NCBI RefSeq assembly: GCF_003675875.1
Contig: NZ_ML014752.1
Span: 166,113-230,112 of the forward strand
Origin: Halostella limicola
Lineage (GTDB): Archaea > Halobacteriota > Halobacteria > Halobacteriales > Natronoarchaeaceae
Length of the DNA: 64,000 bases
Direction of reading: 5' to 3'
Both the position numbers and the translations under genes were made by a program. The notes below the pieces were generated by a model that had not been told where the DNA came from, did no database searches, and was given only the letters and a program-made list of their open reading frames with translations. Positions 1,015 through 35,620 of this stretch are shown in pieces (position 1 is the stretch's first letter; every line of letters starts with the position of its first letter).

Positions 1015-1116
1015 CGTTGCCCGAACTCCGGACGGGAGGGAGAAATAGATTCCCGTCCGCGGACTCGAGACGCTTTTGTCACTGTGCCGATAACGGCCGC
1101 AGTACCCGGTCCCCGC

Positions 1117-2028
1117 ATGGCAGACACGTACTACGACGTCCTCGGCGTTCCCCCCGACGCCGACCAGGACGCGGTCCGCGCGGCCTACCGCGAGAAGGTC
1201 AAGGAGACCCACCCAGACGTGAGCGACGACCCGGACGCAAGCGAGCGGTTCAAGCGGGTCACCCGCGCCGAGGAGGTGCTGGGCGACGAGGACGAACGGG
1301 CGCGGTACGACCGACTGGGTCACGACGCGTACGTCGACCGCGTGAGCGGTCGGAACGCCGCCGGGTCGGAGCGGTCGCCGTGGACGACGGACGAGCGCCG
1401 CGACCCGAGCGAGGCGGCGCGCCAGCACGTCTCCGGGGACGACGGCGGCGCGGCGGGAAGCGGGCGAACCAGCCGCGATCGAACGAGTGCAGACGACTGG
1501 GGGAGCGACGGCGTCGAGTGGGGGCGCGACGGCAAGTGGGGACGCGACCGCGACGAACGGGAGAGCACCGCGGCGCGGGACGGGACCGGCCGGTCGCGGG
1601 CGCAGCGACGCCAGGAGTTCTACCGCGACCGGACCGGCCGGGAGGAGACGAGCTACGCGGTCCACGGCTGGGACGACGAGGGGGGCGCCGACGGCCGCGA
1701 CGCGGGCGTCCCGCTGACCCAGCAACACCTCATGTTCCTCGCCGGGATGGTGTTTCTCTACCCGGTGCTCGCTTTCTTCTCGGTGACGCCGGCGTTCCCG
1801 CTCGTCCTCCGTCTGGTCGTCGGGCTCTGCACGCTGCTCATCACCGGCTACCTGCTGACGATCCCGCCGATCGGGACGGCGATCTTCGGCGTCTGGAGCG
1901 TGCTGTCACCGATAGCGGTCCTCCTGCTCCCGGTCGACCCGCTCTCGCTGCCGGCGCTGTTCGCGCTCGGCGTCTGCTGGGTGCCGTTCGGCTACTCGCT
2001 GGTCGTGGCGCGGGCGCTGCGGGGGTGA
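1117..2028 (+). CDS. J-domain protein with C-terminal membrane segments
   Basis: 303 residues. Residues about 4-65 form a J-domain with the diagnostic HPD triad at 32-34, the part that stimulates DnaK ATPase. A long hydrophilic, Arg/Asp/Gly-rich linker follows (about 70-195). The C-terminal 100 residues hold three to four hydrophobic helices starting with MFLAGMVFLYPVLAF. There are no DnaJ zinc-finger or client-binding domains, so it is probably a membrane-tethered co-chaperone that recruits DnaK to the membrane (inference). It lies divergent from menB and convergent with menD with only 13 bp between stops, interrupting the men genes. Start ATG at 1117 lies directly before the J-domain. Confidence 0.85.
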   Translation: MADTYYDVLGVPPDADQDAVRAAYREKVKETHPDVSDDPDASERFKRVTRAEEVLGDEDERARYDRLGHDAYVDRVSGRNAAGSERSPWTTDERRDPSEAARQHVSGDDGGAAGSGRTSRDRTSADDWGSDGVEWGRDGKWGRDRDERESTAARDGTGRSRAQRRQEFYRDRTGREETSYAVHGWDDEGGADGRDAGVPLTQQHLMFLAGMVFLYPVLAFFSVTPAFPLVLRLVVGLCTLLITGYLLTIPPIGTAIFGVWSVLSPIAVLLLPVDPLSLPALFALGVCWVPFGYSLVVARALRG

Positions 2029-29159: not shown

Positions 29160-30065
29160 ATGACCGAGACGATCCGAGTCGCCGTCCCCAGGAAGGGGCG
29201 CCCGCTGGAGGCGGTGCTCGAACGACTCGCCGACAGGACCGGCGACGCCGCCCTCGCCGACGACATCGTTTCTACGCTCCGCTACGAGAAGGCCATCACG
29301 AAGGGCAACCAGAGCGACGACCGCGACGTCTACGAGCGCCTCGCCGAGTACAGCACCCTCTCCGACCCGTCCGCGCCGGACTACACCCTCCTGCGCGACG
29401 ACCGCGCCGGCATGCCGCGTCGCATCGTCTTCGACAGCGTCACCGTCGAGAGCGACGGCGTCGAGGTCCAGCTCATCGGCCGCGAGGAGCCGTTCCGCGC
29501 GGTCCGTACCCACGAGTTCGCGCTCGGCTTCGACAGCGCCGACCTCGTCCTCGAGGAGGTCGTCGAGCTCCGCGAGGAACCGCTCGCCTCCATCGCCGAC
29601 GTGAACGCCCGCATCAACCCCAAAGACACCGACGTCCGGGTCGTCACCGGCCTCGGCGACACCGTCTACCACACGCTGATGGCCACACCCGAGACGCTGC
29701 GGACCGGGCCGTCGGCGGATCTGACGAGGGAGTTCGTCGCCGACTACGACGGGCGGCTCTGCATCTCGCCGCGGTACGAGCGCCTCGTTCAGGCCGTCCT
29801 CGGGACGGGCGCGACCGACGACCTGACCTTCTGCTATCCCGACGAGGGCCGAGAGGAGGAAGCCGCCGTCGCGGACGTCGGGCTCGGCGTCTACCTCACG
29901 ATGACCGGGTCTACCGCCCGAGAACACGGGCTCGAACTCGGAGAGCAGCTGTTCCCCAGCGAGACGGTGCTGATGGAGAACGTCGTCGAGATGACCGACG
30001 ACGCCGACGTCGTCAAAAACCTGTTCGCCGAACAGGAGTTCGAGACCGAACTCGCCGTTCAGTAG
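29160..30065 (+). CDS. Divergent HisG-like protein
   Basis: 301 residues. It starts like ATP phosphoribosyltransferase (IRVAVPRKGRPLEAVLERL) and has the family-type PRPP-loop region near residue 250 (TMTGSTAREHGLELGEQLF). The middle differs strongly from HisG: about 60 extra residues and no recognisable active-site stretch between 50 and 130. It may be a paralogue with the periplasmic-binding-like HisG fold but another ligand, or a highly diverged HisG. It lies behind the 28208 gene and overlaps the stop of the convergent FG-GAP gene by 7 bp. Assignment beyond fold level is uncertain. Confidence 0.5.
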   Translation: MTETIRVAVPRKGRPLEAVLERLADRTGDAALADDIVSTLRYEKAITKGNQSDDRDVYERLAEYSTLSDPSAPDYTLLRDDRAGMPRRIVFDSVTVESDGVEVQLIGREEPFRAVRTHEFALGFDSADLVLEEVVELREEPLASIADVNARINPKDTDVRVVTGLGDTVYHTLMATPETLRTGPSADLTREFVADYDGRLCISPRYERLVQAVLGTGATDDLTFCYPDEGREEEAAVADVGLGVYLTMTGSTAREHGLELGEQLFPSETVLMENVVEMTDDADVVKNLFAEQEFETELAVQ

Positions 30066-33000
30066 TCCGCGGTCGTCGAGTTCTCTCCGTCGTCAGCGGT
30101 CGAGTTCTCCACGGTTCCGTCGTCTTCTGGGACTGATTCGTTCCCCTCTCCGGGTTCGTCGACGCCGGCCGCCTCGTCGGCGGCCTCGTCGTCCATCCCG
30201 TCGTCGCCGGCGTTCCCTTCGACTGTCAGCCGGTAGTCCTCGAACCCGTCGAAGCTGCCCGGTTCGCTCGCTCCAGTGACCCGCACGTAGTAGGTGCCGG
30301 AGTCGAATATCTCCACCACCTGCTCGGCGGTGTACCGGTGCTCGATGCCCTTCTCGGTCACGCCGGGGCCGCTCGTGGCGGTCGGGATCACCTTGTCGCC
30401 GCTCTCGTCGTACACCTCGACGCGGACGTTGTTTCCGAGTTCGGTGTCGCTGTCCGTGAGTTCGACCGCGGCGCGGTACGTCTGTCCCTCCGAGAACTCG
30501 ACGGCGTACCAGTCCTCGTCGTCCTCGACCAGCGTCGCGTCGAGGGAGTCGCCCGGCGAGACGGACGCGGCGGACGCGCGGTCGTCGTTCCCCTCTTGGG
30601 CGTCGTCGCCGCTCGTCGAGACGCGGAACCGGTACTGGCCGAGCACGTCGTAGCCCGGCGCGGTCGCCTCGACGTAGTACGTCCCCGACGCGTCGGCCAC
30701 GCCGCCGATCGCGCGGGCGTCGCTCATCGGGGCCCCCTGTGCTATCTGTTCGCCGTCCGGACCGTAGAGCGTGTACTGGACGTCGCCCGTGCCGCCGGGG
30801 AGCGTCAGGCGGATGGCCTCGCCGCCCTCGACCTCGAACTCGAACCGGCGCGTCTCGGCGTCTGTCTCCTCGCCGCTGACGGTCGTCCCCGTCTCGATGC
30901 TCGTCGTCGGCGCCTCCGACTCCGTCTCGTTGTCGGACTCGAACTGGCCGACGACCGCGCTCTCGTTGGACTTGGCGTCGTCGTCGGTCTCCGTTCCGTT
31001 CTCGGCGAGTCCGTCCGACTCGTTGCCCGTTTCGTTGGTCACGTTGTCGGCGTCGTCCGTCTCGTTTTCACCGTCAGTATCGTCACTGTCGTCCGTCTGG
31101 TTTTCGTCGTCGGACTCGTCGTCGCTCGTCTCGTTTTCGCCGTCAGTCCCGTCCGGTCCGTCGTCGGTCTCCGTTCCGTTCGGGTCATCGGTGTCCGTCT
31201 CGTTCGTCCGATCGTCGCCGTTCGTCTCGTTCGGTTCCTCGTCGGTACCGTCGTCGGTCTCGTTCCCGACGATGTCGTCCGCCTCGTCGTCGGTGTCGTC
31301 CATATCGTTCGAGTCGTTCGTCCGGTCGTCGCCGGACTCGTCGGTGTCGTTCTCGCCGTCCCCCTCGTCGGGGCGTTCCGGCGGGTCGTCGTGCGTCGGG
31401 AGCGGCGTGTCGTCCTCGTCGTCCTCCCGCTCTTCCGTCGTTTCCGCGTCCTCGTCTTCCTCGGCATCCTCATCTGCGCGCTCGTCGTCGCGAGGCTCTT
31501 CCCCGGTGTCGATGGGTTCGTCGCCAGTCGCGTCGTCCGTCGGACAGACGCCGCCGACGAGATACGCCGTCCCGCTATCGTTCGCGTTCGAATCGCTGTA
31601 CGGTGCGCCGACGAGTAGCGCTTGGGCGCCCTCGCCGGAGAGGTTCGTCGCGCCGGCGAGCGAGAAGCCCGCGCCGTCGCCGCGCGCTTCGCCGGTGAGC
31701 GTCGCGGTGGCGTCGGCCAGCGAGGCGGTACCGGTCGCGTCGGCCCCGACGACGTGAGCCGCGCCCGTCGCCTCGTCGGTGCCGGGTGCGCCGACGAAGA
31801 CGCGCCCGTCGCAGGGGCCGCCGCCGACGGCGAAGCCGGCGAGGTCGTCCTCGGCCGCGCCGTTCAGGGTCAGGTTCGCGTCGGCGAGGCTCGTCTGGTC
31901 GGCCAGATCGCCGCCGTGGAGGACGTAAGCGGCTCCCGCGTCGTCCGCCGCCGCGTCGCTGTACGGCGCACCGACGATCACGTCGGCGTGTCCGTCGCCG
32001 TTCACGTCGCCGGCGCCGTCGACCGCGTAGCCCGCGTTGTCGTCGTCGCCGGCTCCGACGAGTTTGGCGTCCGCGTCGGCCAGCGACCCGTCGGACTCGC
32101 GCACCTCGTTGCTTCCGTAGATGACGTAAGCAGCCCCGGCGTCGCTCGCGCCGGTGTCGTTGCCGTATGCGCCGACGATCACGTCGCGCAGTCCGTCGCC
32201 GTTCACGTCGCCCGCGTCGGCAACCGACCAGCCCGCGCGGTCGCCGTAGCCCTCACCGGCGTACTTCGTGCCGACGTCCGACAAGGACAGCGCGTCAGCG
32301 CCGTTCGAGTCGAGGTCGCCGCCCGGGAGGACGTAGGCGGCGCCGGCAGTCCGGTTGACGCTGTCGTTGTACGGCGCGCCGACGACCAGGTCCGAGCCGG
32401 CCCCGGTCGTGTCGTTCACGACGTCGACGGCGTAGCCTGCGTGGTCGCCCCACCCTTCGCCTTCGAGCGTCAGGCCCTCGTCGCCGAGAGTGACCGTCTC
32501 GTTGAGGTCGTCGCCACCGGGGACGACGTACACCGCGCCCGCGTAGCGATCGCTGCTGTTCGCGTGGGGCGCGCCGATGACCACGTCTGCGTACCCGTCG
32601 CCGTCGACGTCGCCGCCGGCGACCGAGACGCCGGCTCTGTCGGCGCGCTCCGACCCCTCGAACGTCACGTCCGCGTCGGAGACGTCGAACTCCCTGTCCT
32701 CGACGGGACCGTAGAAGAGGTACGCGGAGCCGCTCCCGGAGCTCTCGTCGTGTCGCCGCGGCGCGCCGACGAGGAAGTCGGTTTCCCCGTCGCCGTTCAC
32801 GTCGCCGGCTTCGGCCACCGACCAGCCCGCGGTGTCGTTCTCGTCCGCGCCCGCGTACGACGCGTTCGCGGTGGAGAGGTTCCGCTCGTCGTCGGTTTCC
32901 TGTACGCCCGCTGCTTGGCCGTCGAACTCGACCGTCGCCGTCGCCACGTCGCCGACACCGATGCCGGCGACGGCGATACTACCGGCGACCAGTAACGCTA

Positions 33001-33073
33001 TCGCCGCGATTCCGGCGCGAAGCCATCTGTCTGTCTGGGGACCCATATCCGCCCGCATCCGGGGAGGGGCCAT
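30059..33073 (-). CDS. Seven-bladed FG-GAP (integrin-type) surface protein with PPC-like domains
   Basis: 1004 residues. An N-terminal hydrophobic helix (WLRAGIAAIALLVAGSIAVAG) acts as signal or anchor. Seven FG-GAP blades follow, each ending in V-G-A-P-like residues; four have the calcium loop DVNGDG or DVDGDG and blades 3, 6 and 7 have degenerate loops. Seven is the number needed to close an integrin-alpha propeller. A long Asn/Glu/Asp/Thr-rich linker with many N-x-T sites (about 500-720) leads to two beta-sandwich domains like bacterial pre-peptidase C-terminal domains (YTLYGPDGEQI, YRAAVELTDSDTEL). It is probably exported and N-glycosylated. ATG 33073 is chosen; 33058 and 33046 are alternatives. 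Confidence 0.8.
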   Translation of the reverse strand: MAPPRMRADMGPQTDRWLRAGIAAIALLVAGSIAVAGIGVGDVATATVEFDGQAAGVQETDDERNLSTANASYAGADENDTAGWSVAEAGDVNGDGETDFLVGAPRRHDESSGSGSAYLFYGPVEDREFDVSDADVTFEGSERADRAGVSVAGGDVDGDGYADVVIGAPHANSSDRYAGAVYVVPGGDDLNETVTLGDEGLTLEGEGWGDHAGYAVDVVNDTTGAGSDLVVGAPYNDSVNRTAGAAYVLPGGDLDSNGADALSLSDVGTKYAGEGYGDRAGWSVADAGDVNGDGLRDVIVGAYGNDTGASDAGAAYVIYGSNEVRESDGSLADADAKLVGAGDDDNAGYAVDGAGDVNGDGHADVIVGAPYSDAAADDAGAAYVLHGGDLADQTSLADANLTLNGAAEDDLAGFAVGGGPCDGRVFVGAPGTDEATGAAHVVGADATGTASLADATATLTGEARGDGAGFSLAGATNLSGEGAQALLVGAPYSDSNANDSGTAYLVGGVCPTDDATGDEPIDTGEEPRDDERADEDAEEDEDAETTEEREDDEDDTPLPTHDDPPERPDEGDGENDTDESGDDRTNDSNDMDDTDDEADDIVGNETDDGTDEEPNETNGDDRTNETDTDDPNGTETDDGPDGTDGENETSDDESDDENQTDDSDDTDGENETDDADNVTNETGNESDGLAENGTETDDDAKSNESAVVGQFESDNETESEAPTTSIETGTTVSGEETDAETRRFEFEVEGGEAIRLTLPGGTGDVQYTLYGPDGEQIAQGAPMSDARAIGGVADASGTYYVEATAPGYDVLGQYRFRVSTSGDDAQEGNDDRASAASVSPGDSLDATLVEDDEDWYAVEFSEGQTYRAAVELTDSDTELGNNVRVEVYDESGDKVIPTATSGPGVTEKGIEHRYTAEQVVEIFDSGTYYVRVTGASEPGSFDGFEDYRLTVEGNAGDDGMDDEAADEAAGVDEPGEGNESVPEDDGTVENSTADDGENSTTADY

Positions 33074-33491
33074 TGTAATTAGTCGCTTGCTCGCCACAAT
33101 CGCCGCTATATCCCGGTGCCAGCGGCGGGAACTATCTCGTTGCAGCACCTTCAGCATCGCCAACCGTTCGCCCGGCGCGAACGAGAGAGCGTTTCTGGCG
33201 TCGGTCTGGGAGGGTCTGTGACGCCACTCTCAGTACGCTGTGAAGTAACGCGTCGATACCTCAGAGATCCGGTAACTGCCGTTCTCCAGTTCGGAGTGCA
33301 CAGTCTAGAGATATCACCCGATTCAGGGGTCGTACGTCGTTAATTCGAAACTACTGACGGTATCGATTACGGATTCTGGCATCTTCTACCCCATTGAACC
33401 CGATCGCTTCGGGATTGGACCGCGCTCATCGCGTCCCTCTCCTCTCCGATAGTACCGAGGGTCGCCGGTCACGGACGTAGCCGGGGAAGGG

Positions 33492-33514
33492 CTCCAGTCG
33501 GCCACGGACTGGAG
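33492..33514. repeat. 8-bp inverted repeat in the gene desert
   Basis: CTCCAGTC (33492-33499), 7-base loop, GACTGGAG (33507-33514). A third copy of CTCCAG follows at 33523. It could be a hairpin in RNA. Confidence 0.5.
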
Positions 33515-33877
33515 GCCAACGACTCCAGATGGAGACTTTCCCGGGAAGCGGACGGACTGGAACGTGTTCCGTCAACCACCGAGCCGGCAACTCACGTAGC
33601 AGCCCGACCGTGTAGCCGACCCGAAAGGAGATTCCCTGAACGCTGCCGACATCACCTCTGGAAGAGCCGCTACGCGTGTCCGCGCCGAGAACGAGAACGT
33701 CGATCCGGATAACCGCCACTAGTCTTCCGACAGCAACTCTCGCGATCCAATACCCAGTCGACCTAATCGTGGAAGCCCCGGCAGTAGCACGTCGCTTCGG
33801 GTGAAAGCGCTCTCCGATCCGGGCCGGTCCTCACGTGGCAAAGCAGCCTAAATCGGTATAGCGACATATGATTTACC

Positions 33878-33893
33878 CGGTCGATTTCGACCG
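33878..33893. promoter_or_regulatory. Perfect palindrome CGGTCGA-TT-TCGACCG
   Basis: Seven-base arms with two bases between, just downstream of an AT-rich TATA-like sequence (GGTATAGCGACATATG, 33855-33870). The pairing of a TATA-like motif with a compact palindrome looks like a promoter-operator, but no gene follows. Confidence 0.4.
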
Positions 33894-33959
33894 TTGATAA
33901 AGTGTCCGGGCTCGGATGTCGACAGGCCGACAATGGGACACAGCGGTGGGAATCCCCGT

Positions 33960-33977
33960 GCGACCCCTAAGGGGCGC
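33960..33977. repeat. Small GC hairpin
   Basis: GCG-A-CCCC, loop TAA, GGGG-CGC: seven pairs with one bulged A. It lies about 0.9 kb from the stronger hairpin at 34867. Confidence 0.4.
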
Positions 33978-34866
33978 AGTAGTGTTACACGGAATCCGAC
34001 GAGAGGGCATCTCGACGCGACGGGCACAGGGAGATTGTTCGACCAGGCGACCCCTCGCAGTCTCGTCCGTCAACGTCGCATTCGAGAGTTATAACGACGA
34101 CAACGACCGGGATCCGACCGTCGCGAAACGGACCATCGCTGTGGCCGCCCGGATCTTCGGGGGAACGAATTCCCAATACGGTGACTGGGATCCCGTCCGC
34201 CTCGTCCGATCAGCTACGAACCGGGGTCCTGACCGTCGCAGGGCGCTCTGTGCCGCCGCTTGCGAGCGCTCACAGGCGACCCGAGCAGTAGTCGTCATCA
34301 GTTCTCACCGCCACGGAATAGGGAGGCGGTTGCAGAGAACGACGAACGTGGAGAATGAGTGCCGGGAGACAGTACGCCAAGCCGCCATCCCACCGCCGCG
34401 GCTGAAGGATCGAGGTCGCTCGCGTCCGGATCGCGATCGGTCGTCCGTCGAACGAATACGCGGTCGATGAATCGACAGGGACTGTACCGAGAACGACCCC
34501 GCCAATCTCGGGCGGGCACACCGTGGCGGGAACGAGTGACATTGGCGACGACCGGGGAAGAACCCCGACGACAGTACGGGACGCCACTCGGCCTTCCGAA
34601 ACGGTTCTTGCAGCTGCGGTGGCCGTTCCCGATCTATCAGGACGGCACCACGTCGTTCGCTCCTTGCCGACGAGGCAGGATCGGTGCCACGCCGAGCGAC
34701 GCACGTTCGCGATCGCGTCGACGGCCGACCGCGTACGATCCTCTCGATCCGACAAACGATCTGTGAGTGCGCAACTACTCCGCCGTCGACGAGCGCCGAT
34801 CGACACCGCGCAGCGAGGGATCTGTTGGTGCTGGCGCGACACATATCGGGGAAATAGAACCCGATC

Positions 34867-34900
34867 TTCGGGCCGCAACCCCAAGGGTTGGAGGCCCGAA
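34867..34900. repeat. Strong nested hairpin
   Basis: Outer stem TTCGGGCC (34867-34874) with GGCCCGAA (34893-34900), inner stem CAACCC (34876-34881) with GGGTTG (34885-34890), loop CAA, and a 1/2-base internal loop. Fourteen pairs in 34 bases. It resembles in style the subterminal hairpins of IS200/IS605-family elements, but no transposase gene is present. Confidence 0.6.
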
Positions 34901-35194
34901 AACACCGCCCCAGATCGGGAGCTCATCCGGCACTATCTGACAAAAATCTATTAAATTATGGCGACGCAGCGATCGTCTCGTCCCTGCGACTGAGATCCGG
35001 CCATCGTCAGGAATACCGCACAGATTGGCCGGCTAATTTTATCTGTGTCTGTAGCACCAGTGTATCTAATATTGAGGCTATATTCGAGGATCAGTGGCCG
35101 AATAAGCCAGAATTAGAGGACCATAATCGAGGATAAACTCTCTTATTTGTGCCCGTGGGACAGATTGAAGAGGGTGGCTCGAGTGCGACGGAAC

Positions 35195-35620
35195 ATGGCG
35201 AGCGAGGGAGACGAGACCGAGCGGACCGTCGTCAAAACGTACGTTCCCCGATACCAAAAGGAGATCTGGACCGACCAGGCCGACGAACTCGGCATGAGCC
35301 AGAGCGAGTTCGTCCGGACGATGGTCCAGGCCGGCCGCCGCGGGTTCGACGGCGGAGGCGCGTCCGAACGCTCCGACCCCCAGGGCCCGAACGCCGAAGA
35401 CGGCGATCCAGCCGGTTCCGACGGTGGGGACGGCGACGGCCTCGACGATCGCGTCCTCTCGGTGCTCGACGGCGAGGAGTACCTCGACTGGGAGTCGCTG
35501 GTCGAGTCGCTCACCGGCGACATCGAGAGCCGCCTAGAGGACGCCCTGCAACAGCTTCAGTCCCGCGACGAGGTGCGCTACAGCGGCCGGCACGGCGGGT
35601 ACACCCGGGTGGACGGATGA
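35195..35620 (+). CDS. DUF5805-like ribbon-helix-helix protein coupled to the integrase
   Basis: 141 residues. The N-terminal part (ERTVVKTYVPRYQKEIWTDQ, then a helix with MSQSEFVRTMVQAGRRGF) looks like a ribbon-helix-helix unit. The middle is acidic and Gly-rich, and residues about 95-141 look like a small winged-helix (YLDWESLVESLTGDIES, DALQQLQSRDEVRYSGRHGG). Such proteins are commonly encoded directly before a chromosomal tyrosine recombinase in haloarchaea. Its stop overlaps the integrase start (ATGA at 35617-35620), so the two are translated together and it may be a directionality or DNA-bending partner (inference). ATG 35195 fits a TATA-like box about 50 bases upstream. Confidence 0.75.
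   Translation: MASEGDETERTVVKTYVPRYQKEIWTDQADELGMSQSEFVRTMVQAGRRGFDGGGASERSDPQGPNAEDGDPAGSDGGDGDGLDDRVLSVLDGEEYLDWESLVESLTGDIESRLEDALQQLQSRDEVRYSGRHGGYTRVDG

Follow-up and report, generated by a model that had tools for sequence, protein, structure and literature searches.

Xer recombinases acting at dif sites have been described in several archaeal and bacterial lineages. The closest relatives of the locus reported here are the XerA/dif system of Thermococcales (PMC2958812) and the XerA of Thermoplasma, in which an archaeal Xer recombinase is paired with an inverted-repeat site of 11-6-11 bp. The thermococcal dif site is found once per chromosome and does not adjoin xerA (PMC2958812). In streptococci (XerS/difSL) and epsilonproteobacteria (XerH/difH), a single recombinase is linked to its site near the terminus (PMC2731167, PMC5357621), and the excerpts of these reports that we used describe no RHH partner gene and no upstream array of half-sites. 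Others showed that the plasmid sites cer and psi associate a core with accessory sequences, at which the DNA-binding accessory proteins PepA and ArgR control resolution (PMC5357621). Finally, the XerL/dif resolution system of Legionellales was exposed by IMEX, mobile elements lodged in the dif site (PMC9765430). As for haloarchaea, replication in Haloferax volcanii was reviewed in 2020, with dif sites mentioned as just suspected and the role of the XerC/D-like genes as undetermined (PMC7776575); no report of a haloarchaeal dif was found in the open-access literature searched, subscription papers lying outside that search.

We analysed a 64-kb stretch of haloarchaeal DNA, hereafter the window, where a long non-coding interval ("the desert") precedes an operon encoding a ribbon-helix-helix (RHH) protein and a tyrosine recombinase. 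Sequence comparison established the anatomy of a dif-like site at this place, its fixed position, its near-uniqueness, its location opposite oriC1, its splitting by proviruses and its presence on replicons of about 1 Mb; taken together, these point with good confidence to a haloarchaeal Xer/dif module for chromosome dimer resolution, with the RHH protein as a likely accessory factor or regulator. The locus shares with Thermococcales the type of recombinase, the 11-6-11 bp layout and the single site per chromosome, whereas its site occupies the upstream region of the operon, accessory half-sites and a partner gene for an RHH protein accompany it, and its recombinase does not reach the cut-off of the XerA equivalog. 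With XerS/difSL, the likeness is restricted to the gene-beside-site arrangement. Core and accessory sequences are combined as in cer and psi, but these are plasmid sites served by host XerCD, by unrelated housekeeping accessory proteins and by about 180 bp of accessory DNA (PMC5357621). Similarly to IMEX, mobile elements occupy the site in two genomes, although these are archaeal proviruses that would depend on the host recombinase. An RHH partner and accessory half-sites are not described in those parts of the related Xer/dif literature that were compared. The proposal singles out one recombinase among many candidates, locates its likely site with base precision, opens chromosome resolution, termination and control without FtsK to testing in genetically tractable haloarchaea, and reveals an integration site used by haloarchaeal proviruses.

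Anatomy and conservation of the dif-like site

The meaningful part of the desert is its last 130 bp (Table 1). The most significant inverted repeat found, ATAA-N6-TTAT at 35133-35146, lies there within a core of 11-6-11 bp, with two accessory half-sites upstream and the RHH/recombinase operon directly after. It occurs once in the window, 0.01 copies being expected by chance in 64 kb. The site consists of two inverted arms of about 11 bp around a 6-bp spacer, in non-coding DNA. The arms, whose outer positions are symmetrical just loosely, extend into an element of about 22 bp (consensus TTATCTGTGnnTGTAGTACC). A half-site weight matrix, trained solely on the left arms of other loci, finds extra copies at offset -61 in reverse orientation and at -94 to -96 in forward orientation, though not in all loci; scores above 8 bits occur at offset -61 in 34% of the 50 loci, the figure for background offsets being 0.013%. 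All four half-site copies are present in the window, while E1 and E2 are clear in part of the loci only.

Table 1. Features of the desert, the dif-like site and the adjoining operon (positions in the window)
Feature	Position	Strand	Basis
Non-coding desert	33059..35034	.	Codon scoring, period-3, no genus DNA match but for the last ~60 bp of the stretch searched, gap statistics
Strong nested hairpin	34860..34918	.	DNA folding z -4.8; one match in own genome
Accessory half-site E1 (TTATCTGTGTCTGTAGCACCAG)	35039..35060	+	Left-arm weight matrix match, recurrent offset
Accessory half-site E2	35072..35093	-	Left-arm weight matrix, offset -61
Half-site E3, includes left 11-bp core arm (35126-35136)	35115..35136	-	Weight matrix
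Dif-like 28-bp core, arms ATCGAGGATAA + TTATTTGTGCC, spacer ACTCTC (35137-35142)	35126..35153	+	
Half-site E4, includes right core arm	35143..35164	+	Weight matrix
RHH + winged-helix-like protein (DUF5805, PF19121), 141 aa	35195..35620	+	Pfam E 1e-24; AlphaFold model
Xer-like tyrosine recombinase, 351 aa	35617..36672	+	Pfam PF00589/PF02899; alignment

In nine aligned genomes of the family, ATAA-N6-TTAT is invariant. Across the order, 50 of 69 loci have the core between -75 and -40 relative to the RHH start, and five further loci show forms with one mismatch; the 674 kb covered by these loci contain 57 copies of ATAA-N6-TTAT in total, 50 of them at the usual place. A second collection of named loci, which overlaps the first in species, presents the core in 63 of 80. 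The remaining 14 of the 69 loci have no recognisable ATAA-N6-TTAT at the usual place. Among these core-less loci, the site lies farther upstream in three (L055, L058, L100) and the palindrome is changed in three others (L064, L068, L075), all of one genus, where both arms were altered together to TCTTA-N6-TAAGA. Within exact-core loci, arm-to-arm coevolution is weak, and the 6-bp spacer between ATAA and TTAT varies among loci. Some 200-250 bp of extra DNA separate the site from the RHH start in L100, L156, L160 and the genomes of genus g81.

It is common for RHH proteins to recognise short inverted repeats within the promoters of their own genes, and the site overlaps the upstream region of the operon, 40-75 bp before the start codon, with TAGTACTA-like palindromes in the arm extensions. 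It might then be a promoter and autoregulatory operator alone, bound by the RHH protein and devoid of recombination. We consider this improbable, as such an operator would explain neither the variable 6-bp spacer, nor the position opposite oriC1, nor the proviruses that split the site at its core. Operator and recombination functions can nevertheless coexist at the site.

Recombinase, RHH partner and chromosomal position

In its AlphaFold model (mean pLDDT 74, linker disordered), the RHH protein has a fold that matches CopG/Arc/NikA-like proteins. Its C-terminal part corresponds to DUF5805, a domain named in no paper of the open-access literature searched. It is likely an accessory or regulatory partner of the recombinase. 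The latter exceeds the cut-offs of both PF00589 and PF02899, its residues R159, K218, H296, R299 and Y331 are invariant in 20 aligned sequences, and its closest solved relatives are the archaeal XerA structures 5hxy and 4a8e (Thermoplasma, Pyrococcus), so that by alignment it appears to be a Xer-type recombinase with intact catalytic residues. Its scores stay below the cut-offs of the XerA equivalog NF040815 (100.5 bits for 220) and of XerS NF003462 (33.7 bits for 267), and none of the genes in 40 haloarchaeal genomes reached the canonical XerA cut-off.

The recombinase is found in 283 of 293 genomes of the order, including all 255 of high quality, mostly as a single close homologue, with 65-75% identity across the order; a sample of 120 genomes of the phylum yielded no member outside the order at E<=1e-20. 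Since a tyrosine recombinase beside its own site resembles an integrase-attachment module, and proviruses use this same site, one could see in it a domesticated integrase of a mobile element, next to a relic attachment site and foreign to dimer resolution. This is very unlikely, considering the universal, mostly single-copy and well conserved gene, the lack of any relative in 50,697 phage records, its occurrence in 2 of 72,556 plasmid records, both of about 1 Mb, and a terminus position that is kept while the neighbouring genes differ.

The counts and position of the site agree with a Xer/dif module. A site profile (R1, 141 positions, threshold E<=1e-4) searched in 293 genomes matched in 186, nearly always beside the operon, and two R1 sites were obtained in one genome only (G015), where a provirus splits the site. 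There is one site per chromosome. In another genome (G011), site and recombinase operon are in inverted orientation to each other (L219, around 6173).

To place the locus on the chromosome, we took 44 chromosome contigs, nearly complete and belonging to eight families, treated each as circular, and measured the angle between the locus and DP1, a marker adjacent to oriC1. In H. volcanii, DP1 has been reported to lie near oriC1 and orc1 (PMC7776575). DP1, an Orc1-like gene and a signal-peptidase-like gene stand side by side in two genomes of family f4, but Orc1 was not recognised beside DP1 in the f5 and f7 regions examined. The distance averages 160.5 degrees (median 169, range 100-180) where a uniform spread would give 90 (Kolmogorov-Smirnov p 6e-20, kinship being handled by family means only). 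The gyrA gene is a weak neutral control of position because it usually lies near the same region, at a median of 14 degrees from the locus, but it is informative where it has moved: in three genomes (G276, G108, G211) gyrA has moved to 33-49 degrees and the recombinase locus stays at 151-174 degrees. The site is near the replication terminus, opposite oriC1.

Such a module would operate as follows. When two circular sister chromosomes are fused by homologous recombination, the resulting dimer has the site twice, near the terminus. The recombinase would then attach to both inverted arms, presumably cut where the arms meet the 6-bp spacer and swap strands, and thereby restore monomers. E1, E2 and the RHH protein would probably assemble into an accessory complex that promotes resolution rather than fusion, and that probably also autoregulates the operon; this complex would take the controlling role that FtsK has in bacteria. 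A bolder proposal, which we advance tentatively and stop short of favouring, is a system independent of FtsK in which the RHH/winged-helix protein and phased half-sites gate Xer recombination, and replicon-specific spacers keep chromosome and megaplasmid sites apart. Haloarchaea are polyploid, and dimer resolution may therefore matter less to them. The 14 core-less loci, the partial occurrence of E1 and E2, the degenerate megaplasmid sites, the XerA score below cut-off and the f5 and f7 regions with no recognised Orc1 beside DP1 also count against a dimer-resolution module.

Proviruses at the site and its copies on megaplasmids

In two genomes the site is split by an inserted element. A virus-like insert of 12.6 kb in G015 (L218, G015:C1:30500-49500) has genes for a DNA methyltransferase, a serine recombinase and a PIN-domain protein, besides a weak match to terminase. 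E1, E2 and the left arm remain in the left copy of the site, whereas the right arm and the start of the operon belong to the right copy, and an identical core, ATAA-GGGCCT, is found at both ends of the insert. In Haladaptatus pallidirubidus (G193; L228-L230, G193:C1:3604000-3652000), the site is split by a tailed-virus provirus of about 40 kb with terminase and portal genes. The spacers at its ends, GTTTGC and ATTTGC, have five of six bases in common. Its operon-side end carries TGCAAGG repeats, common to L025 and L097, two loci with a related end sequence beside the site. No free virus with the Haladaptatus provirus end was present in IMG/VR.

The proviruses likely use the host recombinase, because neither insert yielded a tyrosine recombinase by HMM or motif, in a search that left some small ORFs unannotated; the G015 element does, however, have its serine recombinase. 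The first gene of the Haladaptatus provirus is weakly recombinase-like (E 0.06); it was rejected as an integrase, as it matched no integrase family and displayed no catalytic motif by eye. Insertion into the core constitutes indirect evidence for strand exchange at the site.

The two plasmids with the recombinase (L231, L232) are megaplasmids, measuring 987 kb and 1,163 kb, and each encodes its own RHH gene and recombinase and carries a slightly degenerate site (ATAA-N6-TTAG and ATTA-N6-TTAT). In Halomarina, the spacer is GGCTCA on the chromosome versus GGGCAC on the megaplasmid.

The desert upstream of the site

The initial annotation of this DNA had described a gene desert of 2.1 kb, lower in G+C and with hairpins, in a window otherwise coded nearly end to end, and this description holds in part. 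With a codon-score gene caller, the empty stretch covers 33059-35194 (2,136 bp) at a G+C of 0.60 versus about 0.69 around it. No other gap of the window is as long, the second among true gaps measuring 453 bp. The desert leads straight, as had also been noticed, into the coupled genes of the DNA-binding protein and the recombinase, which overlap by ATGA at 35617-35620. An apparent gap of 1 kb (1015-2041) hides an ORF with a DnaJ domain (1100-2028, plus strand) that was missed by the simple gene caller.

Neither a missed gene nor a decayed transposase, the two possibilities against which the annotation had warned, came to light: the ORFs of the desert matched no Pfam family, and no period-3 signal was found, the spread of GC by codon position being 0.03-0.17, where the 95% limit of shuffles is 0.17 and nearly all coding windows reach 0.3-0.58. 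An overlooked coding gene was ruled out on these grounds. The window is devoid of tRNA, which ruled out a tRNA-linked integration scar.

The comparison of related loci that had been suggested gave distinct answers for distinct parts. The terminal site is conserved. In DNA comparisons with other genomes of the genus, in which the recombinase is 83-92% identical, the desert was unmatched except for the last 60 bp or so of the stretch searched, and even in a sister species with a 92% identical recombinase no conservation of the desert is seen. Its length is another matter, as a long non-coding interval of unconserved sequence recurs before the operon across the order. Gaps that precede the RHH gene measure 977 bp at the median, versus 117 bp for 347 other gaps of the same loci (Mann-Whitney p 1e-28), or 963 bp after dropping three loci with a possible missed gene, and in 49 of 68 cases such a gap is the largest of its own locus. 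The genes upstream of the gap vary between families.

The inverted repeats, of which the annotation had considered four or more noteworthy, did not withstand comparison with dinucleotide shuffles: 10 hairpins with a 7-bp stem and a loop of at most 30 were observed, against 6.3 +/- 3.1. As a group, the hairpins are at chance level, and a hairpin-rich locus was rejected. The exception is the strong hairpin of Table 1, about 120 bp upstream of E1, and it is the one feature that speaks for a long structured non-coding RNA. This option of the annotation is scarcely credible, given the chance-level hairpin count, the lack of conservation in the genus and a search of the window against Rfam with 0 matches above gathering score; the latter two led us to reject it. 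Its second option, a recombination locus, applies to the last 130 bp or so (35039-35164).

Its remaining option, the decayed remains of an element once integrated beside the site, concerns 33059-35034 and seems to us rather unlikely, though clearly less so than an RNA. Elements do integrate at the site in other genera, the G+C of the desert is lower, and a sister genome (G004) has a desert of 4.9 kb that holds a hisH-like ORF (L010, 7123-7767, minus strand). Against this, coding periodicity is lacking, a search of distant sensitivity revealed no plasmid or phage similarity, on which a plasmid or phage remnant was rejected, and the 64 kb contain no second core within two mismatches, so that a second core as attachment scar was discarded. 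Furthermore, both known provirus inserts lie on the operon side of E1/E2 and not on the desert side, and provirus scars alone therefore do not explain the DNA upstream of E1. The simplest reading of the desert would be junk DNA tolerated at the terminus. The gene that adjoins it (30059-33058) encodes an FG-GAP repeat protein that is absent from the locus in two sister species and is 47-51% identical in others, where its neighbours are 80-93% identical.
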